Of a DNA stretch of 64,000 bases, positions 13,849 through 57,521 are shown piece by piece. The translations under genes were made by a program, and so were the position numbers. Numbering within the stretch: position 1 is the first letter of the stretch; the number at the start of each line of letters is the position of its first letter. Source of the stretch: Coptis chinensis (Eukaryota; Streptophyta; Magnoliopsida; Ranunculales; Ranunculaceae); NCBI GenBank assembly GCA_015680905.1, contig CM027383.1, positions 37,074,501-37,138,500 of the forward strand, written 5' to 3'. Below the pieces are notes generated by a model that was given only the letters and a program-made list of their open reading frames with translations, ran no database searches and was not told where the DNA came from.

Positions 13849-14288
13849 ATTGCCTTAGAAACTCACTGAAGTTCAATATACATGCATGCTATGTATAATT
13901 GTATATTGAGTTTGTGAATTGCGTTGGGCATGGATAATCTTAGTATGTTTGATGTTGTTAGTTCTTAGTTGGCTAAAAACAAACAAACTATATCATGTCT
14001 TCGAGAGACTAGAGCCAATCACCTGTCAGTAAAATCAGAAAGGCAACTAGGCAAAAACCATGGAAAATCTTGACTTCCTATACTACCCCTATAAAATACA
14101 AAATGAAAAAGAGAGAACGTGCGGTGCTGGATTTCCTGCTCCCCCTTGTTCTTTCATCGAGAGGAAAATCAACAGTATTCAAGCCATAGCCCACTGTTTT
14201 GAGCAACACTACAAATTTTGATTTAGTTAGAAATACAAGTAGCCTTTCATTAATCACTGTTATTAGTAGACAGTAGTAGTTGAAATCA
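13849..14288. other. No gene recognised
   Basis: Non-coding sequence between the Harbinger right flank and the MULE left terminus; nothing identifiable beyond AT-rich spacer. Confidence 0.5.
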
Positions 14289-14375
14289 GGGAGTAACTCT
14301 CAAGGACAAAAATGCCGAAAAAGTAACTCTCAAGGACACCTTTTTATTTTTGTAACTCTCAAGGACCGGGTAGAT
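14289..14375 (+). repeat. MULE left terminal repeat, three units
   Basis: Three units about 30 bp apart share TAACTCTCAAGGAC: GAGTAACTCTCAAGGACAAA at 14291, AAGTAACTCTCAAGGACACC at 14321, and TTGTAACTCTCAAGGACCGG near 14354. The first pairs with the outermost unit of the right end. Confidence 0.8.
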
Positions 14376-14488: not shown

Positions 14489-15380
14489 TGTATTTAGTAT
14501 GAACATTCAATGTTCATAGTCCTTTGGGTATGAACATTCAATGTTCATAGTCCTTGGGTATGAATATTGATTGGGTATGAACATGCGATGTTCATAGTGA
14601 ACATTCAATGTTCACAGTCCTTGGGTATGAACATTGATTAGGTATGAACATTCAATGTTCATAGTCCTTTATGAACATTCAATATTCATACATGAACATT
14701 CAATGTTTATCCATACATGAACATTGAATGTTTATAGTCTTTTGGGTATGGACATTGAATGTTCATAGTCCTTGGTCCTTTGGGTATGAACATTGATTAG
14801 GTATGAACATTAAATGTTCATAGTGGGTATGAACATTAAATGTTCATAGTGAACATTCAATGTTCATAGTCTTTGGGTATGAATATTGATTGAATATGAA
14901 CATTCAATGTTCATAGTCCTTTGGGTATGAACATTCGATGTTCATAGTCATTGGTCTTTTGGATATGAACATTGATTGGGTATGAACATTGAATGTTCAT
15001 ACATAAACATTCAATGTTCATAGTCCTTGGGTATGAACATTCAATGTTTATAGTCCTTTGGGTATGAACATTCAATGTTTATACATGAACATGAAATGTT
15101 CATAGTCCTTGGGTATGAACATTGAGTGGGTATGAACATTCGATGTTCATATTCCAAGGACTATGAACATTCAATGTTTGAATGTTCATAGTCCTTGGGT
15201 ATGAACATTGATTGGGTATGAACATTGAATGTTCATAGTCCTTTTGGTATGAACATCCATTGTTCATAGTCTTTGGGAGATGAACAATCAATGTTCATAG
15301 TCCTTGGGTATGAACATTGAATTGTGTATGAACAATTGATGTTCATACCTTTGTGTATGAACAATGGATGTTCATACCCA
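14489..15380. repeat. Palindromic 21-mer cluster 1 (upstream of Ulp1 gene A)
   Basis: About 26 copies by eye of TATGAACA-N5-TGTTCATA. The centre is mostly TTCAA or TTGAA, which makes the whole 21-mer an almost perfect palindrome. Copies are separated by linkers such as AGTCCTTTGGG and GATTGGG. Some copies are half sites (GGTATGAACATTGATTGGG). It lies between the MULE left end and the promoter region of gene A. Confidence 0.9.
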
Positions 15381-15394
15381 ATAAATATAGGATA

Positions 15395-15574
15395 TTATGT
15401 GTCACGTCCTAAATAAACGGTTTCGTGTCCAATTATTAATACGGTTCCAACTACTCTTTTTGCACACATTTCCAAAAAACAACGAAACCAAAAAGAAAAC
15501 TAACACAAACAGTAAAACCCTAGATTCATTTTTAAACCAAAATTGTCTCCAAAATCAAAATCAAAATATATCAA
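15395..15574 (+). promoter_or_regulatory. 5' flank of Ulp1 gene A, homologous to that of gene B
   Basis: The 180 bp before the start codon of gene A align by eye with 21425-21596 before gene B. Both share TTATGTGTC, then ACACATTTC(C/G)AAAAAA, AAACCAAAA and an AAACCCTA(G/T)ATT block. No TATA box stands out. The similarity suggests the two genes were duplicated together with their promoters. Confidence 0.5.
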
Positions 15575-15939
15575 ATGGACAAAAATGTGTGCAATAAGAA
15601 TTGCAATAAGCCTAGGAATGAGAACGACATTTACTGTGAAGAACACAAACAAGAAATATCAAATGTCATACAAATTATTGTAAATGATACGGTTGAAGAA
15701 AAAGTTGGAGGAGATTAGGAGGATAGAACAAAAGAAGTAGTTGTTGAGAGTGAAGATGACGAGAAAACAAATACTGATGATGAAGATGGAAATGCAGAAG
15801 AAGAAGAAAAATAAGAAAAAGAAGAACAAGGAAAAGAAGAAGAACAAGAAGAACAAAAGGAAGAAGAAGATGAAGAACAAGAAGAAGATATAAAGGTTTT
15901 TTTTTTTTAATTTTTGTTTTTATTTTTTGAAATAAAGTG

Positions 15940-16275
15940 GTATGAACAATGAGTGTTCATACGTCTATTTTTGCATATTAGGATTTGAATATGTTAGGAC
16001 CGCGTAGAATAGGAAATAGGCATGAACTTTCATTGTTCATACTCATATTAGACTATGAATACTCATATTCATGTAGTATAGCATGATATTAAATATGTAT
16101 AAATACTGATTTTTCATAACTTTGTTTTGCATGTTAGGATTTGAATGCTGGAAATCAAGAAGCACATCAACAACAAGATGGAGGAGAAGATGATTTGGAG
16201 GTTCCAATAAAGGTACATTTACATTAGTGATTACTCAAAACTCTGTATGAACATTAATTGTTCATAGTCCCTGGG
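15940..16275. repeat. Palindromic 21-mers, cluster 2 (introns of gene A)
   Basis: Three scattered copies: TATGAACA..TGTTCATA near 15940 and a weaker one near 16022 in the first intron, and one near 16241 in the second intron of gene A. Confidence 0.8.
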
Positions 16276-17427
16276 TATGAACATCGATTTCATCCCTTTA
16301 CAATAACAAAACTATGTTTATAATTTGCATGTTTAACCTTCAATTATTTGCAGTCCTTAATCCGAGGAAGGACGAAAAGAAATATGGAGAAGAAGAAGAA
16401 AGTCGATAAGTCCCCTGTGAGTAGATTTGTAAGTAGAAAGTTATCTTTGAGATCTAATGTACCAAACAAAAAATTATGTTTGAGGTCTGCATAAAAAAAA
16501 AGGAAACCGAGTCGAGCAACGCTGCCGTCCAATCTAAAAAACTTAAGACAAAGAATACTAGTAAAAGGAAGGTTGTGCTCAAGAAAACTAATAAAAGGAA
16601 GGGTGTGGTCAAGAAAAATAGGAAAGAGAAGGTGGTAGAAGAGAAGGAAGATGAGGAAGATGAGAAGGAGAATGTTAAAGGTACCATAGTAGCACCTGTG
16701 CAGCTGCGAAGTACCTTCTCACACATGATAAGTTTGGTACAAAAACTCAAAGAAGTGGGGATTCCAAAAAAACATGTCAATGAAATGAAGAAGACACCCT
16801 TCTGGTTTATGTTTGATGTATTATACAATTGTGGGATTGTTGAAGGAAACAAATTTAAGCCAAACAAAGAAATATTCTATCTCTTGGACAATTTCAAATC
16901 AGAACCTAAGGAGGCATTTGAGATTGGTAAGAGAATGGTAAAGCTAACTGTAGAGGAGGTTAGTCTCATGTTTGGGCTGCCTATCACAGAGACTTTGGTG
17001 CAATTAAATAGGACTGTTGGAGATGATGAAAAGAAAACCAACTTCATTAAAAACTACTTTGGTGATGCCAACACCAGGTATTCCAAGTCTCATGTTGAAG
17101 ATGGCATAATGAGGACTTTGGCAACCACTGATGAGCAATCAGCTGAAGATTTTGCAAATCTGATGTCGCTTTTCATGTTGGTTATATGTTTCTTCACCAA
17201 TACCAATTACAGAGCATCATGGCCATTGATCAAGGCTGTTGACAGATTGGATACACTTAGAAGTCTGTCTTGGCCAACTGCCATACACAAGGAATTAATT
17301 GATGCTACCATTGAATACAAAGAAGCAAAAAAATAGACAATCAATGGATGCACTATAATGTTTTTGGTATATTTCTTTAACTCAATATCTTTAATTTATG
17401 GTTGTTTGTCTGTTTTTATAACAATTG

Positions 17428-18185
17428 GTGGGTATGAACACTCAATGTTCATAGCTATTGGTGGATATGAACAACCAATGTTCATACATGGATACCTATT
17501 GGTGGATAGCTAACGCTGGGTATGAACAATCCATGTTCATAGCTATTTGGTGGGTATGAACAATGAATGTTCATACATAAATACCTATTGGTAGCTATGA
17601 ACAACCAATGTTCATAGCTATTGGTGGATATGAACACTCATTGTTCATATCAATTGGTTGATATGAACAATGAGTGTTCATATATGGATACCTATTGGTG
17701 GGTATGAACAACCAATGTTCATAGCTATTGGTGGGTATGAACACTCAATGTTCATAGCTATTGGTGGATATGAACAACCAATGTTCATACATGGATTCCT
17801 ATTGGTGGATAGCTAATGCTGGGTATGAACAATCCATGTTCATAGCTATTTGGTGGGTATGAACAATGAATGTTCATACATAAATACCTATTGGTAGCTA
17901 TGAACAACCAATGTTCATAGCTATTAGTGGGTATGAACACTCAATGTTCGTAGCTATTGGTGGATATGAACAACCAATGTTCATATATGGATTCCTATTG
18001 GTGGATAGCTAATGCTGGGTATGAACAATCCATGTTCATAACTATTTGGTGAGTATGAACAATGAATGTTCATACATAAATACCTATTGGTGGCTATGAA
18101 CAACCAATGTTCATAGCTATTGGTGGTTATGAACACTCAATGTTTATAGCTATTGGTGGATATGAACAGCCAATATTCATTATCT
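17428..18185. repeat. Palindromic 21-mer cluster 3 with higher-order repeats
   Basis: About 20 copies with centres ACCAA, CTCAA, ATCCA and ATGAA in a recurring order, linked by CTATTGGTGG. Whole blocks are duplicated: the GCTGGGTATGAACAATCC segment recurs at about 17518, 17821 and 18017. The cluster fills the intron of gene A between its N-terminal-domain exon and the next exon. Confidence 0.9.
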
Positions 18186-19454
18186 ATTATTAGGTTATGA
18201 ACATTTATTGTTTTAATGTTTTAGTTTATTGGTGTGTGAACTAATATGGCTTTCGTCATGTGCATTACAATTTTGGTTTTGTGAGCACTCTGTACTCATC
18301 AAGAAGGTAGAGAACCATGAAACCAAATTCCTGAGGTGTGCAAGGTGAAATTTGAAGACCTTACTTGATGCGTTCCGAAAGACACCAATAACAGAAATAG
18401 CTGCAAGTCAGATTGTTGTTGATGCTGAAGTAGCAACGGAGGATGAAAATACTTTACTTCATGACATGTATAGTGATTTAGTCACAAATCATGAAATAAC
18501 AGTCCAGTCTACTATAGAAAACATTGATGCATTGAAAATGGAGAACAAAGAACTGAAGGAGAGGGCCATTGAGCTTGAAAAGCAAATTATGTCTTCCAGA
18601 GATGAAATGGAAAAGTTAAAGGCAAAGTTAAAGGAGCAGCAAGAGAGGGATATGTCTGATAAGGTTGAATTGCAACCTAATGAAGTAATGGATGAAGTCC
18701 ACCTACCGAAAGAAGTGCAGCAGGGGCATCCTGATGAAGTCACGGATGCAGTCCACCCAGCTGAAGTGCAGCAGGGGCATTCTGACGAAGTGGCAACTGA
18801 AGTAACGAATGAAGTCCACCCACTTAAAGAAGTGCAGCAGGGGGATCCTGATGAAGTCACAGATGCAGTCCACCCGGCTGAAGTGCATTAGGGGCCTTCT
18901 GACAAAGTCACAACTGATGAAGTTCAACAGAGTAAGTATGTCGGAGAAGCCTTTGATGGTCCATCATTTGATCTTCGCGTAACCTTGTCACCTCCAGATA
19001 AAGATGAGGATAAGGATGTCGAGGGAGCCAAGAAACATTGCTCACTTGTAAAGCGAGTCAAGGAAAATAAAGAAAGGAGAAGTAAAGTGATTGGTGAGGA
19101 TTTCACTGGTGATGGGCGAAAAAAAAAGAAAGGTGACACTGGCAAAGGGACTCTTGTTGATGACAGTACTGTTCGCCCTATGCTTGACCTGAAGACATGT
19201 CGATACTATATGGGTTTGGAAGAAACCCATCAAGAAGTCATTGACACGTTCTTTAAAATTGCGGACAATGGGTAAGTTTAAGATACCATAAAATAATATT
19301 TTGAGTAAATATCTTGTTTGACTAATGGTTATTTCTTATGATTTTTGAAGAGCTATTGCTTGGTCAAATGGAGCATTACAAATTCAAGGTGTTCTAGTTG
19401 AAGATATTCTCTTTGATAGAGAAATTGATCACCAGGTATTTTTTATTCATACCA

Positions 19455-19692
19455 CAATTGGACTATGAACAATTATTGTTCATAATCTTTAGCTATGAAC
19501 ACTCATTGTTCATACCCACAATTCGACTATGAACAATGATTGTTCATAGTCTTTAACTATGGACACTCATTGTTCATACTCCAACAATGGGTATGAACAA
19601 TCATTGTTCATACTCCAGCAACTTGCCAAGAATCTTGTAGCTATAATTAACCTTAGACAATTGGACTATAAACATTTTTTGTTCATAGTCAT
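19455..19692. repeat. Palindromic 21-mer cluster 4
   Basis: About six copies, mainly with centres ATTAT, ATCAT or CTCAT, in the gene A intron 19436-19740. Confidence 0.85.
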
Positions 19693-20324
19693 AAACTATT
19701 TATGTGATGCCAATTTAAAATAAACTTATCCATTCAACATGTCATCGACTGGTGGACGATAGAACTTCAACAGAGGAAGACTGGAAATACAGAGACTTGT
19801 TTAGTATCTGCAAACTCTAAGGTGAATTTTTTATTACAAAAAAATATTGTTTCATTTATTATTATTGTCACATTCTTATTATTTCACACAATTGTTGACA
19901 CAGAGATTGTTAGAAGAAGTAGGTTTGGAATCCATATTGAAGAGCATCGACTTCTCTTTGAAATTCATTGCCATTCCAATTCATTCGGACAATCATTGGA
20001 CTCTTCTTGTGTTGGAGTTGGTGGAGGGACAACAAGCAAGATGGTATTACTTCAACTCCCTAAGCCACACAAAAAAAGGGTTGGAAGTTGCAAAAGAATT
20101 GGTGAGTTCGACAATAAACACTTAAATTACATAAAATTTTTTATGTTGAAATATAAAGAAATAACTTATTGTAATTTTGCAAAAGAAGGTACTAGTTCAG
20201 TCAATAAACAATCTTATCACAAAGGGGGATTTGAAAATCCAGTCTGTCAATAATAAAGGAAGAATTCTTTCACCAAAATGTCCTCAGCAAAACAATAGGT
20301 AATTATTTATTTACAACCTGTGTT

Positions 20325-20520
20325 ACATGTGTGAACTTTGATTGTTCATACCTATTGGGTATGAACAATGAGTGTTCATACCTCATATAGCTATGAACAT
20401 TAGTTGTTCATGCCTCAGATAGGTATGAAAAATTATGAATAGAATGACTTTTCATGCATCAAATAGCTATGAACAATCATAGTTCATACCCATAGGAACT
20501 ATGAATAATATTTGTTTATA
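20325..20520. repeat. Palindromic 21-mer cluster 5
   Basis: About five copies, some degenerate, in the last intron of gene A (20299-20587). The matching intron of gene B has none. Confidence 0.8.
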
Positions 20521-20969
20521 CACCAATACATATGAATACTATGATTCCTCATATTTTAGCACTAATTGTGTATTCTCTAAATTGCAGCGTTGATTGTGGC
20601 ATTCATGTGTGCAAAATGATGGAAATTTTGTATGAACAAGATTATATGGATTTCTCTCAATTGATAAATGAAGAGGAAAAACAAAACTTGCGCCCTCACA
20701 TTGCATGTAGAATGCTTTCAGACTTGCCGAGAAGCTGGAGTAAAGATGATCATGATTTTCAGGAAAATTTTAGAAAGGCAATGTTTGTTGAATGAATGTG
20801 AGATTTTAAAAAGGAAATGTTTACTGAATGAATGTGATGAAGGCAAAAAACAATCTATTTTGTGGTGTGTTTTGTGCATAATGATATTTTGTTTATGAAA
20901 GTTAAATATTGGTGTTATTAATGTGTTATCTTATTATTATTTATAACTAATTTTCATTATATTTATATC

Positions 20970-21395
20970 CTTGTTCATAACTGATGTTCATATTTGTGGA
21001 TATGAACAATTATTGTTCATACCTGGTTAAAGGTATGAACAATGAGTGTTCATATCTCCAATAGGTATGAACAATCAATGTTCATATTATTTTCTTTAAG
21101 CAGGTATGAACACTCATTGTTCATACCCTCAATTACGAACATTAGCTATGAACAATAAGTGTTCATACCTATTGGAGCTATGAACAATGATCCAATAGGT
21201 ATGAACATTGATCCAGTTATGAACATGGATTGTTCATACCTATTTGGGAGTATGAAAATTCACTGTTCATACATCAAACATAAGCAATCATTGTTCATGA
21301 CTACTTTGATTTCAAATATAGTTGAACAATCATTGTTCATACCTCAACATGTGAAAAGACATTGAGCTATGAACATTGATTGTTCATACTTACGC
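20970..21395. repeat. Palindromic 21-mer cluster 6 (between the Ulp1 genes)
   Basis: About ten copies with centres ATTAT, ATGAG, ATCAA, CTCAT and TTGAT, in the 0.8 kb between gene A and gene B. Confidence 0.85.
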
Positions 21396-22029
21396 ATACA
21401 TGTGAAAAGACATAATTACCCTCAAAAGCGGTTTTGAGTGTTATGTGTCCATCATTTCTTGTTTTTACGATTTCAGTTACACACATTTCGAAAAAAAGAG
21501 CGCAAAGAAACCAAAACCGCAAACCAAACCCTATATTGATATCTTTTCTTACTTAACTCAAACAATACAACAAAATCAAAATCAAACCCAGTAAAAATGT
21601 CAAACTCACCATTTGAAACCGGCGAGAACTTGTGTGCAACGGAAAATTGCACGAATACTAGATTTGAAAACCAAGTTTATTGTCAAGAACACATCCAACA
21701 AATATCATCTGTTATTGACAATATTATGCTGGATGATTTGATGGAGGAACAAGGAGGAATTGCAACTACTGAGAATGATGATGAGAAAGCAGATAATTTT
21801 GTCCTTAAGAGCATAAAAGAAGTTGATGAGAAATCAGATGATGTTGGAGAAAATAAAGATGAAGAAGAACAACTACAACAAGAACCGGAGAAGAACAAGA
21901 AGAGGATGTACTAATAAAGGTACATTTTTTAGTATGAACAATGATTTTTTTTTTGCAATGATAGTTCATAACTCTGTTCCCTATGTTAGTGAATGTTAGT
22001 TTCTGCATGCATGTTGCACGGTAGGAAAT

Positions 22030-22420
22030 ATTAGTGTATGAACATTGAATGTTCATAGTCCTTGGGTATGAACATTGATTGGGTATGAACATTCAATGTT
22101 CATAGTCCTTTAGGTATGAACATTCGATGTTCATAGTACTTGGTCCTTTGGGTATGAACATTGACTGTTCATACATAAACATTCAATGTTTATAGTCCTT
22201 GGGTATGAACATTGATTGGGTATGAACATTAAATGTTCATAGTCCTTGGATATGAACATTCAATGTTCATAGTCCTTGGGTATGAACATTCAATGTTTAT
22301 ACATGAACATGAAATGTTTTTACATGAACATGAAATGTTCATAGTCCTTGGGTATGAACATTAAGTGGGTATGAACATTCGATGTTCATATTCTAAGGGT
22401 ATGAACATTCGATGTTCAGC
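22030..22420. repeat. Palindromic 21-mer cluster 7
   Basis: About twelve copies in the 5' intron region of gene B. Centres and AGTCCTTGGG linkers are like cluster 1 rather than the adjacent cluster 6. Confidence 0.85.
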
Positions 22421-23304
22421 CATTGATATATACTTTCCTAATTTTTTAATCTTGATATATGGCTTTTATTAATTTGCATAACTTAGCCCGTAGACAGAAG
22501 AAAAGGAAGGCAGTGCCAACCACTGATGCCGGTCAATCTGTTGCTAAAAAAGGAAAGGGAAATAAGGCAATGGAAGTGAAAAAGAAGAAAAAGGAGGAAA
22601 AGAAGGTAACTCAGCTGCGAAGTACCTTGTCTTTTATGATAGGTCTTGTAAGAAAACTCAAGCAGAGAGGCATTCCTGAAAAACATCTCCATGAAATGAA
22701 GAAGACGTCGTTTTGGTACATGTTTGATGCATTGTACAACAACATTATTGTAGAAAGAAACAAACCCAACAAGGAAATATTTTATATTCTAGACAATTTC
22801 ACTGTACCTGAGGAGGCATTTCAAATTGGAAAAAAGCTTGTCAAGTTCACTGTAGAAGAAGTCAGCCTAATGTTTGGAATTCCTATGACCGAGACAATGG
22901 TGCAGCTAAACCGGATTGTCGAAGCTGATAAACGAAAAACAAGGTTCATTTTGAAGTATTTTGGTGATGAGACCGTCCGATATACCAAGGCTCAAGTAGA
23001 AGATGGCATACAGAGGGCCTTAGATGACCCAGAAGAGCAACACGCAGCTAAAGATTTTGCAAGGCTGGTGTCTCTCTTCATGCTGACAACTTGCTTCCAC
23101 AAATGCCAACTACAGAATCTTGTGGCCATTGGTAATTGTTGTTGACAACTTGGATACATTTAGAAAGTTGTCTTGGCCAACAGCTATCCACAATGACCTA
23201 ATTGATGCAGCTAGAGAGCACAAAGTCAATAAGAAACTGACATTCAATGGCTGCACGATAATGTCTATGGTATTGTTTCTCCTTAATTTTTTTTTTCAAT
23301 TTGT

Positions 23305-23570
23305 AGGTATGAACATTGAATGTTGTTCATAACCTAGATGTTCATAGCCCTAGGGTATGAACATTCAATGTTCATAGTACTTTGGATATGAACATTGAAT
23401 GTTCATAGTCCTTCGGTATGAACATTGATTGGGTATGAACATTGAATGTTCATAGTACACTAGATATTAACATTCAATGTTCATATCCTAATGAACATTC
23501 AATGTTAATACATGGATAGGTATGAACACTAATTGTTCATATCTATTATTAGGGTATGAACATTGATTGT
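23305..23570. repeat. Palindromic 21-mer cluster 8
   Basis: About seven copies in the gene B intron that corresponds to the cluster 3 intron of gene A. Confidence 0.85.
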
Positions 23571-24824
23571 TTTAATATTTTGGTTTATTGGTGTGTGAAC
23601 TAATATGGATTTCGTCACGTGCGTTGTCGTTTTGGTTTTGTGAACACTATCTAGTCATTAATAAGGTACAGAACCATGAAAGTAAATTCCCTAGGTGTGT
23701 GAGGTGGAATTTAAAGACCTTGTTTGATGCGTTCCAGAAGACTCTGATTACTACAGTAGCTACATCTCATATCGTTGTCAATGCTGAATCAGCAACGGAG
23801 GCAGAAAGGGAGTTACTTCATGACATGTACATTGATTTAGTCAAAAGTACATATCATGAAGTCCAGCCTACTCTAGAACGGATGAAACACTTAGAGTGGA
23901 GAACAAAGAACTGTTGGCCAAAATTGCCACACTTGAGAAACAACTTCTTGATCGCGAAGAAGAAATAAAAAAAATTAAAAGAGATGTTAAAGGAAAGGCA
24001 AGAGGGGGATACAGCTGAACCTCAACCTCAACCTCAACCTGATCAACCTCAACCTCAACCTCAACTTGATCAACCTCAACCTCAACCTGATCAAGTCCCC
24101 CTTACTGAATTGCAACCTCAACCTGACCAAGTCCCCCGGCTGAAGTGCAACCTCAACCTCAACCTGATCAACCTCAACCTCAACCTAATCAAGTCCCCCT
24201 GGCTGAATTGCAACCTTAACCTGATCAAGTCCCCTTCACTGAAGTGCAACAAGTGAAGCTCCAGCGAGAGTTTGAAGCTCTATCATTTGACTTACGTCTT
24301 ACATTGTCTCCTCTACACAAGGAGGGAGATACAAATAAAGGTGAAGAGAAGGATGTTGAGGCGGGTAAAGGAGCAGAGAAACCTTGTTCCCTAATAAAGC
24401 AAGTCAAGGAAAAGAAAGGAAGGAAAACTAAGCCTATTGGTAAGGAATACAATGCTGAAGGGAAGGGGAAAATAAAGAAAGTTGATACTGGCAAACAAAT
24501 TCTTGACGATGATATTGAGAGTGGACCACTCGAAGACCCTAAGACGAGTCCCTACTATGAGGGATTAGAAGAAAGCCACAGACAAGATGTCGACACTTTC
24601 TTCATGATAGCAGACAAAGGGTAAGTCTAACAAGACTGTAAGTTTTACAAGTTTACTATAACATTTTTTACTAATGGTAATTTCTTATGGTAATTCCTTG
24701 TGGTTTTTGAAGCACAATTACATGGTCAGATGGAAATTTACAAGTACAGGGTGTTCTAGTTGAAGACCTTCTGTTTGATAAAGAAATTGATTTTCAGGTA
24801 AAATTTGTTTATACTAAAATTGTA

Positions 24825-25080
24825 CTATGAACAATCATTGTTCATAGTCATGAGCTATGAACATTCTTTGTTCATACTAAAATTGGACTGTGAACACTCA
24901 TTGTTCATAGTTCATACTGTACTATGAACAATATTAATAATTGTTCATAGTCATGAGCTATGAACATTCTTTGTTCATACTAAAATTGGACTATGAACAA
25001 TCATTGTTCATAGTCATGAGCTATGAACAATCATTGTTCATAGTCCATACTGTACTATGAACAATTATTGTTCATGAAAT
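24825..25080. repeat. Palindromic 21-mer cluster 9
   Basis: About eight copies in the gene B intron 24798-25116, which corresponds to the cluster 4 intron of gene A. An ACTATGAACA..GTTCATAGTCATGAG block is locally duplicated. Confidence 0.85.
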
Positions 25081-26154
25081 ATGTAATGCCAATTTAAAAA
25101 ATGCTCAATTCAACAGGTTATCGACTGGTGGTCTAAACACCTTCAAGAAAAGAACCATGGAAAAAATGAAACTTGTCTAATCACTTCAAACATAAAGGTA
25201 AAATATTTATTACAAAATTCTATTTCATTTCTATATTGTAGATGTTGTCACATTCTTACTATTTCATGCAATCATTGACACAGAAAATGTTAGATGAAGA
25301 AGGAGGCTTGGAAAAAATAGTGCAGAACATCAATGTTTCTGCAAAATTCATAGCTATTCCTGTTCATTCAGATACACATTGGACATTTCTTGTAATAGAG
25401 TTGATAGAGGGACAACAAGAGCAATGGTTTCATTTCAACTCCCTAATCACCGAAAAAAAATTGCTCCAAGTTGTGAATAATCTGGTGAGTTCAACATAAA
25501 ACACTTAACTAACATGAATTTTTTTTCTTGAAACATAATGAAATAACTTCTTTTTATTTTGTAGAGGAAAAGACTGGTTGATCCCATCAACAGTCGTATC
25601 AAAATGGAGAAGAAGAAAATCCACAGCCTCAGTAATAAAGGAAGAATAATGCCTAAAAAATGTCCACAGCAACAAAATAGGTAAGCACGTAATTATTCAC
25701 TAACATTCTTGGAGACTTCTAGACATACAGAAAACAATAATTGACCTGAGATCTGTATTCTCTAAATTGCAGCGTTGATTGCGGCATTCATGTTTGTTAA
25801 ATGATGCAAATTCTTTATGAACAAGGTCGTTGGGATTTTTGTGATGTAACTACTGAAACCGAAGTACACAATACAATATGCATGTGGAACGATTGCATGT
25901 TGGATTGAGTTTACGATAAAACAATATATTTTGACGTGGTGATTCAAAGTGAAATGTGTTCTTTTTGAGTTGTCTTTTTGGTACCCAAGGACAAAACAAT
26001 ATTTTTTCTCGTGTATGAATGTGCATCGGTGGTGATTCATAGTCAAATGTGTTCTTTGAGTGGTCAAGATTTTGGTACACAATGACAAAATGTATGAACT
26101 ATTATTAATGTTTATCATGTGTTCTCTTATTGTTATTCTTTTTTATTAATTATC

Positions 26155-26490
26155 ATGTATGAACAATATTTGTTCATACTCCAGTAAGTATGAACAATGA
26201 TTGTTAAGTATGAACAGTGATTGTTCATAGTACGCGTACTAGGTATGAACATTGATTGTTCATGGTGAACAATCAATGTTCATACCTAGTATGTGTACTA
26301 TGAACATTCATTATTGCTCATACTTGTTAGTGTATGAACAGTGATTGTTAAGTATGAACAGTGATTATTCATAGTACACCATATATGAACATTGATTGTT
26401 CACCATGAACATTGAATGTTCATAGTACACGTCCTAGGTATGAACATTGATTGTTCACTATGAACATTGAATGTTTATACTCCAGTAGGT
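26155..26490. repeat. Palindromic 21-mer cluster 10 (between gene B and transposase)
   Basis: About ten copies in the intergenic space where gene B (plus) and the transposase gene (minus) converge. Some are joined through TAGTACACG linkers. Confidence 0.85.
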
Positions 26491-26721
26491 ATGAACAAAT
26501 ATATTCCACCTAGAACATTAAACATCCTAATATAAAAATCATATGAAAACTGTATTAATATCAATCAGTCAATCAATATATTGTTCATATAAAACATTAC
26601 CACAGCCTGATTAGTTCTTCCTACCTAGAATAATTGGCAAGACTTTGATACCATATCACCACTAGGCTACTCAGTAGTTAACACATCAACAGTTTTCCCT
26701 TGGCAATTCTTTTCGGTCATG

Positions 26722-28993
26722 TCAGTCGGTGCTGTCACATTTTTTGCATTTGTGGGCAGTATAACGCATAGCACCCGCGCTCTCAATCCTCTTAACTCGT
26801 GGTCTACCCGGAGGCTTCTTCACATCTGGTGGGAGAATTCGCACTTCATCAGAACCATCCGAACAGATCTCATTACGACTAATTGCAGTTATGCCATGAG
26901 AGTAGGTGCTACTGAAATAAGTGGAGCGAAATGCATCTTCAATGTATGAATACACCGACTCTTGTTTGCAATGAATACTTGTAATAGCATGACGGCAAGG
27001 AAAACCGTCTATGCCCCATTTGTTACAAGTACAGTCTCTCCTAAGCAAATCAACTCAATGTTTATGCTTCTCCGTATCAACTTCAAATATATGATCATTT
27101 GACTTTGTCACAGTCACAGAACGATCCCTCTCAGTCCTCTCAAGCAATTTTGCTTCAATTTTAGGACAAAGAAAACTTTTCCAATTCTTGTATTCCATCC
27201 TCCGGCAAGACGCCATCTTCATCATCTTCATCCGAATTCCATCTAACATGGCTGTGATGGGAAGATGCCGCTCTTTATCTATCCAGCTGTTGAAGCACTC
27301 CGCCAAGGAAGAGCACATCTCACCATACCGGGCCCCATAGAAGTATGCATTAGCCCAGTACTCATAAGGCGCCCTATTAAGAAAGTTAAAAAGTGCATCT
27401 CCACCAATTTCCTTGAATTCAGCCATGTGTTCCTCAAATTTCTCATGTGTGGCAGCATAAGCACATTTCTTAAATAATGCAACCAACACTTTTGTCATAC
27501 CACATGACTCCGACAAACATGTTCTAAGGTTGTTCTCCATATGCCACAAGCAAAAAGAGTGATAAGAATCAGGAAATACAATAGGAATGTTGACAAGCAA
27601 ACCATGATGTCTATCACTCAAAAACGTATACCTCCGCTCATACCCAAAAGTCTTCTTAAACATATCAAGAAACCAATACCAATTGGAATCGTTTTCAATG
27701 TCAACAACACCAACAGCAAGAGGGAACAATCCTTAAAAAAACAAAAAAAACAAAATATGAGATAACTTGAAGCATCAGTGTTATGTGTTCATACAGAGTG
27801 TATGAACATTGATTGTTCATACACAAAAATGTGTATGCACAATGATTGTTCATATGAACACGTATTGTTCATACTCCAAAACAGTTATGATTGTTCATAA
27901 CCAAACACAAAATTAAAACTAATGAAAATGCTAGTAAAATTAGGAGAATACCTTGATCTCTATTTTTTGCAGTAGTAGCCAACAAACACCCTTTGTAATC
28001 AGATTTCAAGAATGTTCCATCCAAATACACCATCGGGCGACAAAACTTAAAACCATGGATACTTGATTCAAAAGCAACAAACACCCTCTCAAACTTCCCA
28101 CTCTCCTTGTTAACTTCAAGTTTAACAATATTCCTAGGATCTCTTCTTTTCAACTCCTCCGTATACCACAACAAGTCATTGTAAGGCAATGCAACATCAC
28201 CATACAACTCCTTCAATGCCAACTTTTTACCCGCATAAGCTATGTGCCTTGAAATATTAAGCCCGTACTCACGAGTATATAAAGCAGTAATATCTCCAAA
28301 TGTCAAATCTGGTTTATCTCTCACAAAATCAAGAATATGAGTCTTCACAAGATAAGAAATGAGAGGTGGATGTTCGTAGTCTTTAACTGCAAAACCACAA
28401 GTGTGTGTCAGATTAATCTTCTTAATCTCAAAATAACCACAACTCTCCCAAGAGTGAATACACCATTGACAATTTAGCTCATTCTTCTTCTGACAAACCG
28501 CAGTCACTCTAAAATCATCATTCTTGATCAACTCATACTTATAACCACTCACAATAGAGTACTCTATCAATTTACATCTAAACTCAGGAGCACCTAAAGC
28601 AAATCTCTGCCCAACACCACCATCAAAGTTACGCTACCAAAAATCAGACTTGTAAGTTTTATGGCCAACAACCTCACCACCAATTAAGTAACTCGATGAA
28701 CCTGATGAACTTGACGTACTTGCACCACTACAGCCACTCATTGAACTCATACACACATTTACTTTAATCTCCACAATTGCAATCTTCATGCCATAACAAT
28801 AGCAAGCCAAGGATCGCAAATCCCCATCCGTTTCAATCATATTCTCTTTTGCATCACGGGAGAAACACATAGAAAAACTCCTTAATCCCAAATCAAGCCA
28901 CTTGTCACACACCTTGCGCGTAACAACATCAATCGAAGAATCCAACCCAAAACGAAAGGACAAAGTACCCCCATTATAGCAAAAAAACTCCAA
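26722..28993 (-). pseudogene. MuDR-type MULE transposase (two in-frame stops)
   Basis: Two exons, 28993-27952 and 27731-26722, are joined by a GT-AG intron that contains palindromic repeats. Exon 1 starts MEFFCYNGGTLSFRFGLD, the N-terminal region of plant MULE transposases. The MuDR DNA-binding-like region follows (QWCIHSWESCGYFEIKKINL, then HTC). The DDE catalytic residues are seen as D in VYLDGTFLKSDYKG, D in FLSDRHHGLL and E in SSLAECFNSWI. A SWIM zinc finger, CTCNKWGIDGFPCRHAI, is intact. In-frame stops lie at 28634-28636 and 27055-27057. The frame ends at 26722 inside what should be a CCHC knuckle (KCKKCDSTD). It catalysed cut-and-paste movement of the element but cannot make a full protein now. 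Confidence 0.88.
27790..27895. repeat. Palindromic 21-mers, cluster 11 (transposase intron)
   Basis: About three copies inside the single intron of the MULE transposase gene (27732-27951). Confidence 0.85.
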
Positions 28994-29088
28994 TCACACT
29001 AAATTCCATGTATAACTGCAAAACTCAACCCACAAAAACACAATAAAAATGTAATTCAAGAGATGTACACAATAAAAACAAAATACTA

Positions 29089-29410
29089 TGATCATTCACA
29101 ATTCTTCAGAGAGGTCTGAACATACATTGTTCATACTCCACTAGACTATGAACAATAAGTGTTCACCATGAATAATAAATGTTCATAGTACACGTACTAC
29201 TATGATCATTCACAATGCTTCATAGAGGTATGAACATACATTGTTCATACTCTACTACACTATGAACAATAAGTGTTCACCATGAACATTAAATGTTCAT
29301 AGTACACGTACTACTATCATCATTCGCAATGCTTCAGAGAGGTATGAACATACATTGTTCATACTCAACTAGACTATTAACAATAAGTGTTCATATTATT
29401 TGTTTAATGA
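29089..29410. repeat. Palindromic 21-mer cluster 12 in a 112-bp tandem unit
   Basis: About eight copies upstream of the transposase start. They are arranged in three tandem units of about 110 bp starting near 29089, 29201 and 29311, each carrying centres TACAT, ATAAG and TTAAA in the same order. Confidence 0.85.
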
Positions 29411-29867: not shown

Positions 29868-29954
29868 TTATTTTGTCCTTGAGGGTTACTAAATATGAAA
29901 TCGTGGGTTCGTGAGTTACTAATTTCTAAAATTTGTCCTTGTGAGTTACTCACC
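29868..29954 (-). repeat. MULE right terminal repeat, three units
   Basis: Reverse-complement relatives of the left units: TTTGTCCTTGAGGGTTACT at 29873, a weaker GTTCGTGAGTTACT at 29908, and TTTGTCCTTGTGAGTTACTC at 29933-29952. GGTGAG/CTCACC closes the outer edge. The outer 20 bp differ from the left repeat at one position. Confidence 0.8.
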
Positions 29955-30499
29955 AAAAAGTGTGTCCTCTAGACTTCATTTTCTCAAAAATTGGGCTTTC
30001 GGCCCAATTTCTTGAGTTGAAATAAGGTCGAAAAATTTGGAATGGTACGGTTATCAGTGGTAGCCTTTCATTACCACCGACTTCGAAGCTAGAATCACGT
30101 ACTCAGCGGAGAAGAAATTCCACTTTGTTTTGATATAAGGTAAGGGACAAATTAGGAAGTCGGAAATAAGGTCAGTTACTGCGCTGCTAGGCGGGCTTTC
30201 AAATTATGCTGAACAGGTGGTTGGCTATAGTGTCCCCTTGGAGGCCTTGGAGCAATATCGCTGGGAGCAAAAAAATCACTCCATGTCTTCGCGTCTTATA
30301 GTAACATTATTCTTTGTTAGTAGCAAGAATAGGGACCGGCATTCAAATATTCAATTCTCGGACCAATTGCATGAATTCAACATGCTATGTTTGATCAAAC
30401 TTGACAAACTAACTTCAGTGTGCGTGAGTTAGTTGTTAATGGTGGCCTCTAAGGGGTGATTATTAACCTTAGGGGTATTTAGGACATTTTACAAAATTT
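29955..30499. other. No gene recognised; hairpin next to MULE end
   Basis: Spacer between the MULE and the LINE. An inverted repeat at 29983-30016 pairs AAATTGGGC with GCCCAATTT around TTTCG and extends to CTCAA/TTGAG with one mismatch or gap. Nothing else is identifiable. Confidence 0.4.
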
Positions 30500-32345: not shown

Positions 32346-35300
32346 CGAGTACAGCATGTTGGAATATGAGAGGCTTCAATATGAATTTCAAGCATAATGA
32401 AGTAAAGGAGTTGATCAGAAAGTTTCATTTAAGTTTAGTAGGGTTAGTGGAGATGAAAGTTAAAGAGGAAAAAATGAATTATATAGTGAATAAATGTTTC
32501 GCTGGATGGCATATATGTCATAACTATGAAAATAGTGATAAGGGCAGAATATGGGTGGTATGGGATCCGCAAGTATACTCAGTTTTGATGGTTAAGAAGG
32601 GGCTACAATACATAACTATGGAGGTGAGGCTACAGAATGGAAGTATGTTTTGTACTAACTGTGGTATATGGGAGCACTGATTTATACATAAGGCAACAGT
32701 TATGGGATGAGCTAATCAACTTCTCTTATATCAATCAGCAACCTTGGATGGTAATGGGCGATTTTAATTCAGTGTTACATTCGTATGAGAGAGTTGGTGG
32801 TGCACAGACAAGGCCGCAACACTTTGCAGACCTTTTACAGTGTGTAACCTTAACAGGGCTGATGGATCTAAAGTCTAAAGGAAATACACTTACGTGGAGT
32901 AATAAGAGAGAGATAAGGGCATGGAGGAAGCTTGACAGAGTTATGGTCAATGCTAGATGGTATGATGAGTTTGAAGAACATGAAGCAGAGTTTCTCAATC
33001 CAGGAATTGCTTCTGATCATTCTATCATAATTGTATATCCACTTAAGCAGAGACATCAAAAGAAGAGGTCTTTTCGATTTTTTAATTTTTGGGTGAAGGA
33101 AGAGGGTTATATGGAAGTTGTCAAACATGCTTGGGCAACTGAATTTGGAGGGAATCCAATGTATAAACTCATGAGGAAACTGAAACAGTTAAAAGGTGAG
33201 TTGATTGAGTGGAATAAAACTAGAGTGGGTAATGTTATTACTAGAGCTGATACCACTAGAAAGGATCTGGACAGGGTACAGACGATGCTACAAGTTGACC
33301 CTTTGAATAATGGGCTTATAAAGGAGGAAAGGGTAGCTACTCAGAGACATGTCCATGCAGCTATAGTGGAGGAAGATTTCCACAGGCAGAAATCAAGGGA
33401 CCAAGTTATAGTAGGCGGAGATAATAATACGGCTTATTTCTTTAAGTCAGTGCAAGCGAGACAAAGTAGAAATAGAATAACTTGTCTTTTTGAGAATGAT
33501 GGTAGTGTGATTGAAGAGGGAGACCTGATAGGAGCAGAATGTGTGAAGTATTATGAAAGAGTATACAGGCCCGATAGTTTGCCAGACATAAGCTTTGAGG
33601 TATATGGCAATATGCAGCCTAGATATCAGGTAACACAAGATGAGAAAGATGAGATGAAGAAATCAGTAACAAGGGATGAGATTGTGCAAGCTTTAGCTGA
33701 TATTGATAGTGAAAAGGCTCTGGGGAATGATGGCTACTCTGCTCATTTTTTCAAATCTGCCTGGAGTGTTATAGGAGATGATTTTGTGAAGGCAATACAG
33801 GGGTTTTTCAGATCTAAGAGGATGTTAGGGGAGGTGAATTCTACATGCATAGCTTTGATACCAAAAGTAAAAAGCCCTACCTCTCTGGGGGATTACAGAC
33901 CAATTGCATGTTGTTGGTGTGGTATACAAATGTATTACAAAGATTCTTACTGCTAGAATGAAAGGGGTAATTAACTGTATTGTTTCTAATAACCAGTCAG
34001 CTTTCATCACAGGCAGAAGGATACAGGACAACATCTTATTATCACATGAGCTACTACACAACTATCATAGGAATGAAGCACCTCCTAGATGTGCGGCAAA
34101 AATTGATCTGAGGAAAGCCTATGATACGGTGAGGTGGGAAACAGTGGTGTTTGCACTGAGAAGATATGGAATGCCAGAGGAGTTCATAGCATGGGTACAA
34201 GTATGTATAGAAACTCCGATATACTCTATAATGGTGAATGGGGCACCTTATGGGTACTTTCAAGGCAAAAGAGGTATCAGGCAAGGTGATCCTATGTCTC
34301 CCTATTTGTTTGTTATGGTTATGGAGCTACTAACAGAGCTTATGCATCATAGTGTCAGGGAAGGAAAATTCAAACTTCATTATAGATGCAAGGATCCTAT
34401 CATCACACATTTATCGTTTGCCGATGACCTGATAGCATTCATGTATGGTGACTTTGAAACAACAGAATGCTTAAAGAATAACCTTCTACTGTTCAAGCAA
34501 AGTACGGGGTTGGATGTGAATGTGCAGAAAAGCCAAATTTTCTTTGCAGGGATGAATGAGGAGCTATGTGATTCTATAACCAATTCTATGCAATTTGCTA
34601 GGGGGAGTTTGCCTGTAAAATATCTAGGATTGCCTTTAATAACGACTAGACTCACACATACGGATGCTTTGCCGTTGATAGATAAAGTGGGAAAGAGAAT
34701 ACAGAGTTGGCGAGGTAAGATGCTGTCTTATGCTGGTAGAGTGCAACTCATTAAGTCGGTACTCAGCAACTTGAGTGTATACTGGTTTGCAACGTACATA
34801 ATGCCTCAAAGCATCTTGGATGAGATAAATAAGTTATGTAGAAATTTTCTCTGGACTGGGACAGATTGTTTACCGTCTCATGCACTGATTGGGTGGGATG
34901 AAGTGTGTTATCCATATGAAGAAGGTGGGCTGGGAATACAGAATGTTAATACTGTGAACAAAGCTGCCATTATGCGTCATGTGTGGAATTTGGTTAGTAA
35001 AAAGGATAACTTATGGGTTGTTTGGATTTGGAAGAATCTCATCAGAACTAAGAACTTCTGGAGCATGAAGATTCCGAATGATTGCTCATATAGCTGGCGA
35101 GCTATTTTGAATAGTAGGGATGATGCAAAACTTATAGTGCGACATCAGATAGGAGATGGCAGAGATACACTCTTCTGGCAGGACCCTTGGCATCCAAGAG
35201 GTATTTTAAAGAATGTGTTCCCACAAACATTCACATATGACACAAGTTGTCATATGAATGCACCAGTTGCGAACTTTATTAATAATGGAGAATGGAGTAT

Positions 35301-36639
35301 AACAAATAGGCTAGGGAGAGAATGTCCAGAGATAGTGAAGGAGATGAAAGAGGGAGTAACAATAAAGGTGGGAGCAGATGAGGTAGTGTGGACTGATGCG
35401 CTATATGATGAGTTCCAGCTGAAAGAAACTTATCGACGATGAGGAGAAAGATGAGAATAATGATTGATTACGAGAACAATATGGTTTCGAATAACATCCC
35501 GAGGCACTCGTTCATTGGGTGGATGGTAATGAAAGGAGCGCTAAAAAAATACTAAGTAAGATGTATGGACCGGAGAGTAGTGCAATCGAAAATGTGTGTG
35601 CTGTGTTGGAGGGAAGATGAGACGGAGAAACACTTGTTTTTTCACCGTAACTATTCCAAATATATATGGATACAACCGATTACTTATGCAGGGTACTCAA
35701 GGCAACCGCCATGGCGTGGGAAGCCGAGTGTGAATGGGTGTTGCAGGAGAGTAAAAGGTAATGGAGGGAAGAAAGATCTTATTTGAAGCTCATTGTCAAC
35801 GTTCGTTCTTTTAATGGATATGGATGGAACGAAACAAGAGAATCTTTAAAAATCAGCCACGAGAACCGCAAGACCTCATTCACAGGATGCTTGGAGATGT
35901 AAAGATAAAAGCCGAAGTTGCCGAACTATAAAATGGAAGAAGGGTCGAGCGCCAAAGGTTTATGGAAAAATGGAACGTGAACAATTTAATAAAGAGGGAG
36001 ACAAGAAGATGTGTGTGTGGGAAAGAGGAGGAGAAGGTATGTACAATCTAAATTCTGATGGAACATTGCAAGGACAGATTGGAGGGTGGGCTGCTGTGAT
36101 TAGAAGCGAGACAGGAGAAGTGGTTGCGGCAGCACATGGAAAATCGTCATTTTGTGAGATAGCAATGATTGAGCTACAGGGATTGCAAGAAGGATTAAAG
36201 CTGGCGAAGAGACAAAATATCAAAAGGGTGCGCGCGCAGACAGATTCAAAAAATGTTATATCTACTATCTATATACTAAAGCAGAGACCTTTAAAGGAGG
36301 ATTTTCTCTCTCCTATGTGGCACTCTAATATGAGAGTTAGCCTTTTTTTTATCCTGTGGCACTCTAATATGAAAGATAGTATTTTCTAATAGTCCCACGT
36401 ACATGGAACCTCTTAGAAGAGTTTAAGTGTATTTATAATTCTTATATTTGGAGAGTTTGAGAGTATTTCCAATTCTTATATATTTGATCAAATAAAAAAA
36501 AAATTACTAAAAAATTGGTGATTCCTATTACGAATCAAACACTTTTAGTGTTTCAATTCTTATATATTAGATCAAATAAAAAAAATTGCTAAAAACTAGG
36601 TGATTTGTATAAACTAATTCCCTATTACAAATCATACAG

Positions 36640-39600: not shown

Positions 39601-39690
39601 TAATGAGAAATTGGAAACTGGATGCAACGTACTACATTAAACTAACCTCAAATAATAATTAATGGAAAATCATAAACTTGATGCAAATGC
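36640..39690 (+). repeat. Helitron degenerate tandem repeats, unit about 55-60 bp
   Basis: Dozens of diverged copies of a unit built from GGATGCAAATGCATTGAACT, AACCTCAAAGAATAATTAAC and GGGAAATCGGAAACT. The array is broken by other sequence at about 37740-38290 and about 39190-39300. The unit contains the small palindrome TGCAAATGCA/TGCATT. Confidence 0.85.
37735..38105 (+). repeat. Helitron internal duplication, copy 1
   Basis: About 370 bp beginning with TTATATGTTGTGAGAATGTC and ending in AATATAACAACACCCGTTCG. It aligns with 39715-40055 (TTATATGTAAGGAGAATAAA to AATATAACGGCACCCGTTCG). Both copies contain TCAATCAAATTTCTATTATT and GAGTTTTATCAA segments. Confidence 0.75.
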
Positions 39691-39714
39691 ATTGAACTAA
39701 TAACCCTAAAACAT

Positions 39715-57190: not shown

Positions 57191-57521
57191 CTTATCATAT
57201 ATTATTTTATTATCCCTTTCCATGCATTTAATATAGTCAATAAATATAGTCATTTAATATAGGCTCATATACCAAAATGTTTGTACAAACATCCTTCAAA
57301 CCTCTGACTATCCCACGCACATACAACGAAGATAACAGCTTTTTCGTACTATCTCCTCTTTTTCATGCTCACCTACCATTAATACTCCTCTTTTTCATAT
57401 TAAATCAACATTAAAAACCTCGTATCCTTGCCCACCGTTTTTCCTTTAAAAACCCTTTGAGACTTTACCTTTTATCATATCTCTTTTTAACTTCCTTGCT
57501 TATTATCTTAGAGAGAAAACC
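57191..57521. other. No gene; leader of the acidic ORF
   Basis: AT-rich stretch with a TTTAAAAA element near 57448 that could be a TATA-like box for the ORF starting at 57522. No coding content. Confidence 0.4.

Follow-up and report, generated by a model that had tools for sequence, protein, structure and literature searches.

A single decayed MULE of about 15.7 kb (15661 bp) lies in the window, the whole 64-kb stretch of Coptis chinensis DNA that was analysed, and hosts every copy of a 21-bp palindrome, TATGAACA-N5-TGTTCATA. The element is larger than the span of the palindrome clusters, and it links these arrays to a transposase gene and to two Ulp1-bearing genes, A and B. Its main features are as follows:

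14239-14252, forward strand: candidate left target-site duplication, GTAGCCTTTCATTA (identical 14-mer at 30060)
14291-14366, forward strand: left terminal inverted repeat, in which GTAACTCtCAAGGAC occurs three times at intervals of about 30 bp (local alignment)
15575-20795, forward strand: gene A, decayed (open reading frames, A/B homology, Pfam C48 and a tandem coding repeat)
21597-25910, forward strand: gene B, decayed paralogue of A with similar exon order, a tandem-peptide exon and Peptidase_C48
26722-28993, reverse strand: MULE transposase gene, decayed, with DBD_Tnp_Mut, MULE and SWIM domains (Pfam)
29875-29951, reverse strand: right terminal inverted repeat (local alignment)
30060-30073, forward strand: candidate right target-site duplication (14-mer shared with 14239-14252)

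An earlier note on this DNA had called the host element a MULE, and the three transposase domains bear this out (PF03108, 2.6e-07; PF10551, 3.7e-10; PF04434, 4.6e-07). Two transposase exons contain one in-frame stop each, and stops are also present in genes A and B. The transposase search found no relative among viral or prokaryote contigs. Local alignment of the left end with the reverse complement of the right end scored 55, the largest score in 300 shuffles being 34; the terminal inverted repeat is weak and gapped over about 76 bp, degenerate but present. The element is flanked by a 14-bp direct repeat without mismatches, which is separated from the inverted repeats that could be detected by 38 and 108 bp; among 1000 shuffles of a 200-bp flank, 1 produced a shared word of 14. 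MULE target duplications are typically about 8-11 bp long and adjoin the termini.

Gene A runs from a CCCH-like N-terminus through a conserved exon 3 and a coiled-coil-like, tandem-peptide exon 4 to exons encoding Peptidase_C48 (Ulp1; PF02902, E=6.6e-05 and 5.8e-05), a domain found in gene B at 25284-25490 (E=1.3e-4). The same exon carries tandem peptide repeats in both genes (117-bp at 18681-18917 in A, 98-bp at 24050-24250 in B). The CCCH-like motif reached only E=0.05 in B, with no match in A, and no DNA-binding domain was identified in either gene. Twelve open stretches of A and B, with some small exons left out, gave no match to DUF1985 or DUF287 at E up to 10 in a scan where most weak matches are discarded by the filters of HMMER. 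When A was compared with B in five exon pieces totalling 501 codons, dN/dS was 0.28 and dS about 1.1; exon 3 alone gave 0.19 (dS about 1.5) and exon piece E4a2 gave 0.62. Purifying selection has mostly prevailed in the history of both genes, which on sequence evidence are old paralogues.

The window holds 67 exact copies of the 21-mer and 120 copies with up to three arm mismatches, against means of 0.00 (largest 0) and 1.04 (largest 5), respectively, in 100 shuffles. The first of the 120 copies starts at 14498 and the last ends at 29395; with copies less than 400 bp apart joined, they form twelve clusters of 26, 4, 21, 6, 5, 9, 12, 8, 7, 11, 3 and 8 units. These counts agree with the 115-120 copies in twelve clusters between 14489 and 29410 that had been noted earlier, and the coordinates given there are off by no more than 15 bp. 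The palindrome had also been described as private to one MULE, absent from the other 48 kb. Within the window this holds at up to three mismatches: 0 of the 120 copies lie in those 48 kb, where hAT, L1-like and Gypsy-like sequence and other DNA are all palindrome-free, and raising the threshold to four mismatches yields three weak matches outside the element (at 34931, 45483 and 49084). An intronic repeat spread through the whole host genome and merely concentrated at this locus by chance is a most improbable reading; the privacy result covers the 64-kb window, and copies may occur elsewhere, but the clusters also end inside the terminal repeats on both sides. The clusters are distributed as follows:

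14498-15376: cluster 1, 26 units, between the left end and gene A
15941-16266: cluster 2, 4 units, three in gene A intron 1 and one in intron 2
17433-18216: cluster 3, 21 units, gene A intron 3
19464-19687: cluster 4, 6 units, gene A intron 5
20330-20520: cluster 5, 5 units, gene A intron 8
21001-21388: cluster 6, 9 units, between genes A and B
22037-22420: cluster 7, 12 units, gene B intron homologous to A intron 2
23308-23575: cluster 8, 8 units, gene B intron 3
24826-25076: cluster 9, 7 units, gene B intron 5
26158-26479: cluster 10, 11 units, between gene B and the transposase gene's 3' end
27801-27873: cluster 11, 3 units, transposase intron (from splice sites)
29115-29395: cluster 12, 8 units, within 2.7 copies of a 114-bp repeat upstream of the transposase

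All of these locations are introns, intergenic DNA or subterminal DNA of the element. The coding model, whose exon limits are those of a hand model based on splice sites and the A/B alignment, covers 8051 of the 15661 bp and is overlapped by none of the 120 copies; units rotated round the element touched coding sequence 64.8 times on average (P(0)=0.00225). The gene B counterpart of A intron 8 (about 25681-25772) lacks the palindrome.

The two arms show a marked preference for a 5-bp gap, with 120 placements against 3, 2, 1, 4, 5, 9, 0 and 22 at gaps of 3, 4, 6, 7, 8, 9, 10 and 11 bp; all nine gap-9 placements and 12 of the 22 gap-11 placements take one arm from a 5-bp-gap unit. The half-sites, TGAACA and TGTTCA, stand in opposite orientation with centres 11 bp apart, or about one helical turn, and their exact matches in the element number 204 in units, 4 in coding sequence and 26 elsewhere. 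Helical phasing of the unit spacing was not significant when similar spacers were counted once (p=0.16). Many centres are indeed self-complementary, as noted earlier, but only at the frequency of shuffled pairing: among 132 units with up to four mismatches, positions 9 and 13 pair in 58 and positions 10 and 12 in 97, compared with 54.3 and 97.8. The centre is variable and the arms lack covariation, which points to a sequence-specific dyad and away from a hairpin.

It is correspondingly very unlikely that the copies were kept for folding as RNA or single-stranded DNA hairpins, whether for long-intron splicing, intron compaction, or giving or avoiding small RNAs. The intron RNAs at 17367-18226 and 24799-25118 fold far better than shuffles (z of -27.9 and -12.8), which follows from the automatic folding of a conserved palindrome, and G-U-preserving arm changes number 29 in the presumed sense RNA against 16 in the antisense (p=0.07, relatedness not removed). 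Arm-pair covariation, however, never rose above shuffles in the 132 units, which hold 5 double changes (3 compensatory) against 129 single changes, some arising from half-sites that overrun the next unit. Clusters are present in intergenic DNA too, and no Rfam family matched at gathering score. The intron hairpins proposed in the earlier note are thus weakened by the variable centre, by the lack of compensatory change above shuffled levels and by the constancy of the 5-bp gap, in which hairpins would tolerate variation.

The half-sites are conserved specifically. Across 2872 unit pairs from non-homologous clusters, drawn from those 84 of the 120 units whose flanks were clear over 8 bp or more, identity was 94.0% in the arms and 34.3% in the flanks (chance 27.4%); part of this likeness may be recent homogenisation, because blocks have been exchanged between clusters. 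Nine collinear duplicate blocks, which were hand-chosen and of which six are not significant singly, differ at 36 of 609 arm positions and at 94 of 728 positions elsewhere (p=1.7e-5). Differences were also more frequent in the 5-bp centre (30 of 180 positions) than in the arms (24 of 572; p=1.9e-7). The arm difference rate was minimal exactly at a mask shift of 0 under all three arm definitions, a test that lessens, but does not remove, the upward bias in conservation of the consensus-based definition.

Around the half-sites the clusters have turned over. Repeats within them, both tandem and higher-order, have periods ranging from about 20 to 303 bp. Of all cluster pairs, clusters 1 and 7, which do not occupy homologous positions, are the most alike in their flanks (0.548) and share long alignable stretches. 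At the margins of homologous introns, units of A align with units of B, while the intron interiors have turned over; copy number changes by tandem repetition, and the A/B exons are still alignable. The prediction that repeat number would vary while exons do not agrees with this comparison of paralogues with homologous introns in one element. Slippage-driven growth, likewise suggested before, fits the growth inside clusters.

Such turnover also bears on an unlikely alternative, in which the 21-mer, with or without its spacer, is a selfish short palindrome with no role as a protein target, spreading through tolerated non-coding DNA by slippage, template switching or gap repair, as in Volvox organelle genomes. 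Intron and intergenic confinement is the Volvox pattern (PMC2670323), and the tandem and higher-order repeats and the flank likeness of clusters 1 and 7 are consistent with it. Spread alone, however, predicts neither a variable centre of constant 5-bp length nor half-sites conserved above spacers, and it leaves privacy to one element unexplained; in Volvox itself, palindrome copies in the nucleus have been suggested to be inert (PMC2670323). As far as that paper's description goes, the palindromes of Volvox carteri organelles are likewise short and fill intergenic and intronic non-coding DNA, but they are organellar hairpins with a recurrent loop, average about 50 nt, are often inserted into each other and are not transposon-linked (PMC2670323). 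The SIRC of Arabidopsis also combine short repeats, some palindromic, with unlike spacers, often with mobile elements; they are described, however, as 3050 cassettes of 2-8 repeats with a widely varying consensus (PMC10342631), whereas here one motif occupies twelve clusters.

It is quite unlikely that the palindromes are bound by the transposase of the element, or by a transcription factor of the host that drives the element. The dyad is sequence-specific and the transposase bears an N-terminal DNA-binding domain (PF03108), but the terminal inverted repeats, where a transposase must act, contain no palindrome and instead carry GTAACTCtCAAGGAC, and the arrays, far from being restricted to ends or promoters, occupy introns in each of the three genes. 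Transposase binding, one function offered in the earlier note, is weakened by these ends; another, silencing evasion, fits best if it acts via a bound dyad.

VANC proteins carry DUF1985, to which the twelve scanned stretches of genes A and B gave no match at E up to 10. VANC relatives reportedly gain and lose DUF1985, DUF287 and Ulp1 domains, as attributed to Sasaki et al. in 2022. The closest parallels come from Arabidopsis VANDAL MULEs, whose private short motifs are amplified in introns and intergenic DNA (PMC5735166); the view that no described MULE family has a dispersed private motif is contradicted by them, although their motifs are non-palindromic. VANC21 occupies a short motif arrayed in the introns, intergenic DNA and terminal non-coding DNA of its own family, VANDAL motifs are gained and lost through tandem repeats, and VANC variable regions contain tandem peptides (PMC5735166). 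Like the present element, VANDAL21 (Hiun) is a MULE with a transposase and extra genes, a dense private non-coding motif, tandem-repeat turnover and an extra protein whose variable region contains peptides repeated in tandem (PMC5735166). VANDALs have degenerate terminal inverted repeats (PMC10398659) or lack them; the repeat here is degenerate but present. Its motif, YAGTATTAY, is a non-palindromic 9-mer in one orientation (PMC5735166); motif orientation is undefined here because the motif is a palindrome. VANDAL6/VANC6 likewise has private motif arrays of its own, so that the motif differs between families, but AGTTGTCC and AGTTGTAC are non-palindromic; the VANC motifs described in that work are 8-9 bp long, compared with the 21-bp dyad here (PMC5735166). 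VANC21 binding and demethylation are experimental in Arabidopsis (PMC5735166), and their counterparts here are predicted from sequence.

Ulp1-carrying MULEs are known from melon, grape and rice (PMC2528002). KIU (Kaonashi), the Ulp1-carrying VANC genes, provide a second parallel in which a MULE has captured Ulp1 (C48) in an extra gene (PMC13317346, PMC2528002); according to a review, KIU genes act on motifs of Ulp1-carrying VANDALs, and KIU-carrying VANDALs recognise non-coding motifs of KIU-carrying elements (PMC13317346). Compared by description, the present element differs in having two diverged Ulp1 genes and a palindromic target motif.

We consider it somewhat better than an even chance (roughly 0.57) that the palindrome arrays are private targets of the element's own VANC/KIU-like protein. 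The 21-mer would be a dyad DNA-binding site that has multiplied in the principal non-coding parts of a single Ulp1-bearing MULE, and its two-fold symmetry predicts a dimeric binder, putatively a VANC/KIU-like product of gene A, gene B or both. Like VANC21 and VANC6, which act in this way on their respective motif arrays in VANDAL elements of Arabidopsis, the predicted protein would coat the arrays and clear silencing marks, or hold them off, within its own family alone; such arrays would be expected family-wide. At least some clusters may have been seeded before the A/B duplication; they would then have expanded, contracted and swapped blocks as slippage, conversion and unequal exchange acted on them, with the half-sites and their 5-bp spacing maintained by selection. 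More tentatively, and at rather less than even odds, the two VANC-like proteins, which have diverged from each other, may read the 21-bp dyad either singly or as a heterodimer, in a palindromic, dimer-type anti-silencing system. In that case the dyad would have been kept since before the A/B duplication, which has by now accumulated about one synonymous change per site or more, whereas Arabidopsis VANDAL motifs are fast-changing.

If the VANC/KIU-like reading is correct, this locus would be a candidate VANC-type target system with a motif that can be read from sequence alone, because the dyad is long and its gap does not vary; the 21-mer is a short, CpG-poor site suited to a direct binding test. 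It would further suggest that motif symmetry and stability vary among anti-silencing systems, and that plant genomes can be searched for such systems by the private palindrome arrays in MULE introns. Should the anti-silencing role prove wrong, half-site-specific conservation in the non-coding DNA of a decayed transposon would still demand a cause.

In the window, the palindromic unit TATGAACA-N5-TGTTCATA (a 21-mer of two 8-bp arms around a 5-bp centre, with half-sites TGAACA/TGTTCA) occurs in 67 mismatch-free copies where 0.00 are expected in 64 kb, and in 120 copies with at most three arm mismatches where 1.04 are expected. The main counts rest on the latter set. All 120 copies lie within 14498-29395, grouped in twelve clusters inside one decayed Mutator-like element (MULE) of about 15.7 kb, and the 48 kb of neighbouring DNA in the rest of the window contains zero copies at this threshold. 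A host-wide intronic repeat would leave that empty 48 kb to be explained and is highly improbable. Allowing four mismatches gave 132 units, one of which (23639) overlaps an exon and several of which are half-sites extending into the next unit. The 5-bp gap accounts for 120 placements, against 3, 2, 1, 4, 5, 9, 0 and 22 at gaps of 3, 4, 6, 7, 8, 9, 10 and 11 bp; an arm is borrowed from a 5-bp-gap unit in 9 of 9 cases at gap 9 and in 12 of 22 at gap 11. Among the 15 commonest exact 8-bp inverted-repeat arms in the window, the rest are registers or pieces of this array, or a TA microsatellite.

Features of the palindrome-bearing element
14239 and 30060: exact 14-bp direct repeat, outside the inverted repeats
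14291-14366 and 29875-29951: imperfect inverted repeats (score 55, shuffle maximum 34)
About 15575-20795, plus strand: gene A, paralogue of B
About 21597-25910, plus strand: gene B, paralogue of A
26722-27054 (SWIM), 27055-27732 (MULE) and 27869-28633 (DBD_Tnp_Mut), minus strand: Mutator-type transposase (Pfam)

A common word of 14 bp between the flanks arose in 1 of 1000 shuffles of the 200-bp flank. The inverted repeats at both ends hold a repeated GTAACTCtCAAGGAC motif and lack the palindrome; because the ends carry this different motif, the reading of the palindrome as a transposase binding site is disfavoured. The transposase has one in-frame stop within each exon, and genes A and B also contain stops, so this copy of the element is probably dead. 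The gene content of the window suggests plant DNA. The transposase stretch 27055-27732 had no relative in viral contigs, and none of its 13 pattern stretches in prokaryote genome contigs was confirmed by tblastn.

Five exon pieces of genes A and B align at 73-82% nucleotide identity. Across 501 codons from five exon pieces, dN/dS is 0.28 and dS about 1.1; by piece, dN/dS runs from 0.19 (exon 3, dS about 1.5) up to 0.62 (E4a2). The two genes have therefore been shaped largely by purifying selection for a long period. Both genes contain pieces of a Ulp1-type Peptidase_C48 domain and, in the same exon, a tandem repeat (A, 18681-18917; B, 24050-24250). By eye, the His-Trp and the DCG Cys motif are present in both, and the stretch read as the Asp motif (YDS in Ulp1) is FNS in both (19906-20103 and 25286-25488); the catalytic Asp may thus be Asn in each copy. 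A search of solved structures returned weak SENP1/SENP5 similarity (E 0.34-0.61) for one C48 piece of A and no credible match for the other, and an AlphaFold2 model of the conserved exon, built from two sequences, had a mean pLDDT of 42, too low for recognising DUF1985 by fold. A conserved Cys-Cys-Cys-His motif at the start of both paralogues (15590-15646 and 21633-21692) is a possible small zinc finger and a candidate for the DNA-binding part; Pfam returned zf-C3Hc3H (E=0.05) and WRC (E=0.06) for the N-terminus of B and no match for the motif of A.

The arms are the conserved part of the unit. Among the 84 units whose flanks are clear, 2872 pairs drawn from non-homologous clusters show identities of 94.0% for the arms, 50% for the centre and 34% for 16 bp of flanking sequence, with chance at 27%. 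In nine hand-chosen collinear duplicate blocks, 3 of which are significant alone, differences number 36/609 in arms versus 94/728 elsewhere (p=1.7e-5). Since the arms were recognised through consensus likeness, the arm mask was slid from -15 to +15 bp under three arm definitions, and the difference rate was minimal exactly at shift zero under all three. Differences within the unit fall at 30/180 positions of the 5-bp centre and at 24/572 of the arms (p=1.9e-7).

Covariation of arm pairs did not rise above the shuffled expectation in the 132-unit set, which holds 129 single and 5 double changes, 3 of them compensatory; two of the 24 pairs tested within and beside the unit, both outside the 21-mer, reached p=0.007 and 0.025. 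Given the conserved arms and absent covariation, it is the letters and spacing of the half-sites that are kept, not base pairing. A hairpin function is accordingly disfavoured: the two intron RNAs tested fold much more strongly than their shuffles (z -27.9 and -12.8), and G-U changes are somewhat more frequent in the presumed sense than in the antisense RNA (29 to 16, p=0.07), but compensatory change is lacking, and an intron hairpin as main cause was rejected on the absent covariation together with the constant gap. Self-templated repair of the palindrome was likewise rejected, as it predicts symmetric double changes and just 5 doubles, 3 symmetric, were found. With 11 bp, roughly one helical turn, between their centres, the two half-sites would suit a dimeric protein bound to a single face of the DNA. 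Helical periodicity in the spacing between units was strong across all 102 spacings but lost significance among the 41 non-redundant ones (p=0.16); the best of the periods tried was 12.5 bp, not 10.5. The CpG observed/expected ratio is 0.19 in the clusters (a set that includes 75 bp of exon A2), 0.41 in coding sequence and 0.61 in the element's remaining non-coding DNA, and this depletion may stem from the decay of methylated CpG or from a design free of CpG.

Placement was assessed against a coding model of 8051 bp, made by hand from splice sites and A/B homology. None of the 120 units touches coding sequence in this model; when the units were rotated around the element, coding sequence was touched 64.8 times on average (P(0)=0.00225). 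Units occupy introns in all three genes (A, B and the transposase), the DNA between genes, and positions just inside both element ends, and several short introns are without the palindrome. Among the rival readings (ALTERNATIVES), a selfish short palindrome of the kind described for Volvox organelles (PMC2670323) accounts for this spread into non-coding DNA. It leaves unexplained both a variable centre of constant length and the conservation of half-sites within duplicates, and we consider it unlikely.

The intron sets of both A and B hold the palindrome, with spacers not common to them. Homologous introns carry, in A and B respectively, 1 and 12 units (intron 2), 21 and 8 (intron 3), 6 and 7 (intron 5), and 5 and 0 (intron 8), and their interiors have turned over. 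Single units at intron edges still align (16246/22037, 18196/23555, 19464/24826 and 19667/25056), so at least some copies probably predate the A/B duplication. Part of the likeness may come from later exchange between clusters. Of all cluster pairs, the flanks are most alike between cluster 1, which lies upstream of A, and cluster 7 in an intron of B; blocks thus appear to move between non-homologous sites as well.

Other repeats were observed in and near the element. Cluster 10 contains a 73-bp inverted repeat (26243-26480, 89%) and, in one of its spacers, a second palindrome, GTACRCGTAC, seen by eye also in cluster 12. Arrays of a 55-bp unit at 36819-39700 look like an ordinary satellite, yet the unit's core, GATGCAAATGCATT, is a short palindrome too, so that the MULE has another palindromic repeat nearby. 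A 65-bp tandem repeat at 56677-57200 carries a TATCGATA-type palindrome.

Other elements in the window
4570-6042: hAT-type transposase remains (DUF659, Dimer_Tnp_hAT)
32628-35442, downstream of the MULE: L1-like non-LTR element (endonuclease and reverse transcriptase)
59313-61466, minus strand: Gypsy-like pol remains (rve, Integrase_H2C2, RVT_1, RT_RNaseH_2)

In 2022 Sasaki and colleagues reportedly described how DUF1985, DUF287 and Ulp1 domains are gained and lost, as well as a role for motif density and helical periodicity. Their paper may cover similar motifs from further plants; novelty is therefore assessed here only against the literature searches made. Six palindrome 15-16-mers were absent from all 5.39 million papers searched, the two 8-mer arms occur in 1,939 papers with no plant-transposon title among the 20 matches listed, and searches on palindromes in plant introns or MULEs and on Ulp1 MULEs gave no matching report among the matches listed. 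For VANC, the anti-silencing proteins of Arabidopsis VANDAL MULEs, the sole co-occurrence with 'palindromic' among the 13 matches listed concerns a bacterial plasmid. A pattern of two adjacent palindromes had 0 matches among viral contigs and prokaryote genome contigs, sets that do not extend to other plants.

According to PMC5735166, VANC proteins have a variable region holding tandem peptides and bind short private motifs packed into the non-coding DNA of their own family (introns, intergenic and terminal stretches), causing loss of DNA methylation there; the motifs grow and diverge as tandem repeats. The same non-coding regions are targeted by host RNA-directed methylation (PMC10398659). 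According to a review (PMC13317346), some VANC genes (KIU) have a Ulp1 domain and are reported to act on elements that carry Ulp1, whose capture is dated to the monocot-eudicot split. Our element resembles a VANDAL in its transposase, its Ulp1-bearing extra genes with tandem peptides and its non-coding motif, private within the window, and perhaps in its ends, whose inverted repeats are degenerate but present. Its motif is palindromic, whereas the VANC motifs given in PMC5735166 are not, and DUF1985 had no match up to E=10 in twelve open stretches from the two genes, a set without the small exons and scanned with filters that lose weak matches. For these two reasons the element is not classed as a VANDAL, although it is proposed to work like one. 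From this VANDAL/KIU-like anatomy we infer the identity of the palindrome-binding protein, its binding and the ensuing demethylation: the palindrome is most likely the target in cis of a VANC/KIU-like protein encoded by the family itself, which would probably bind as a dimer.
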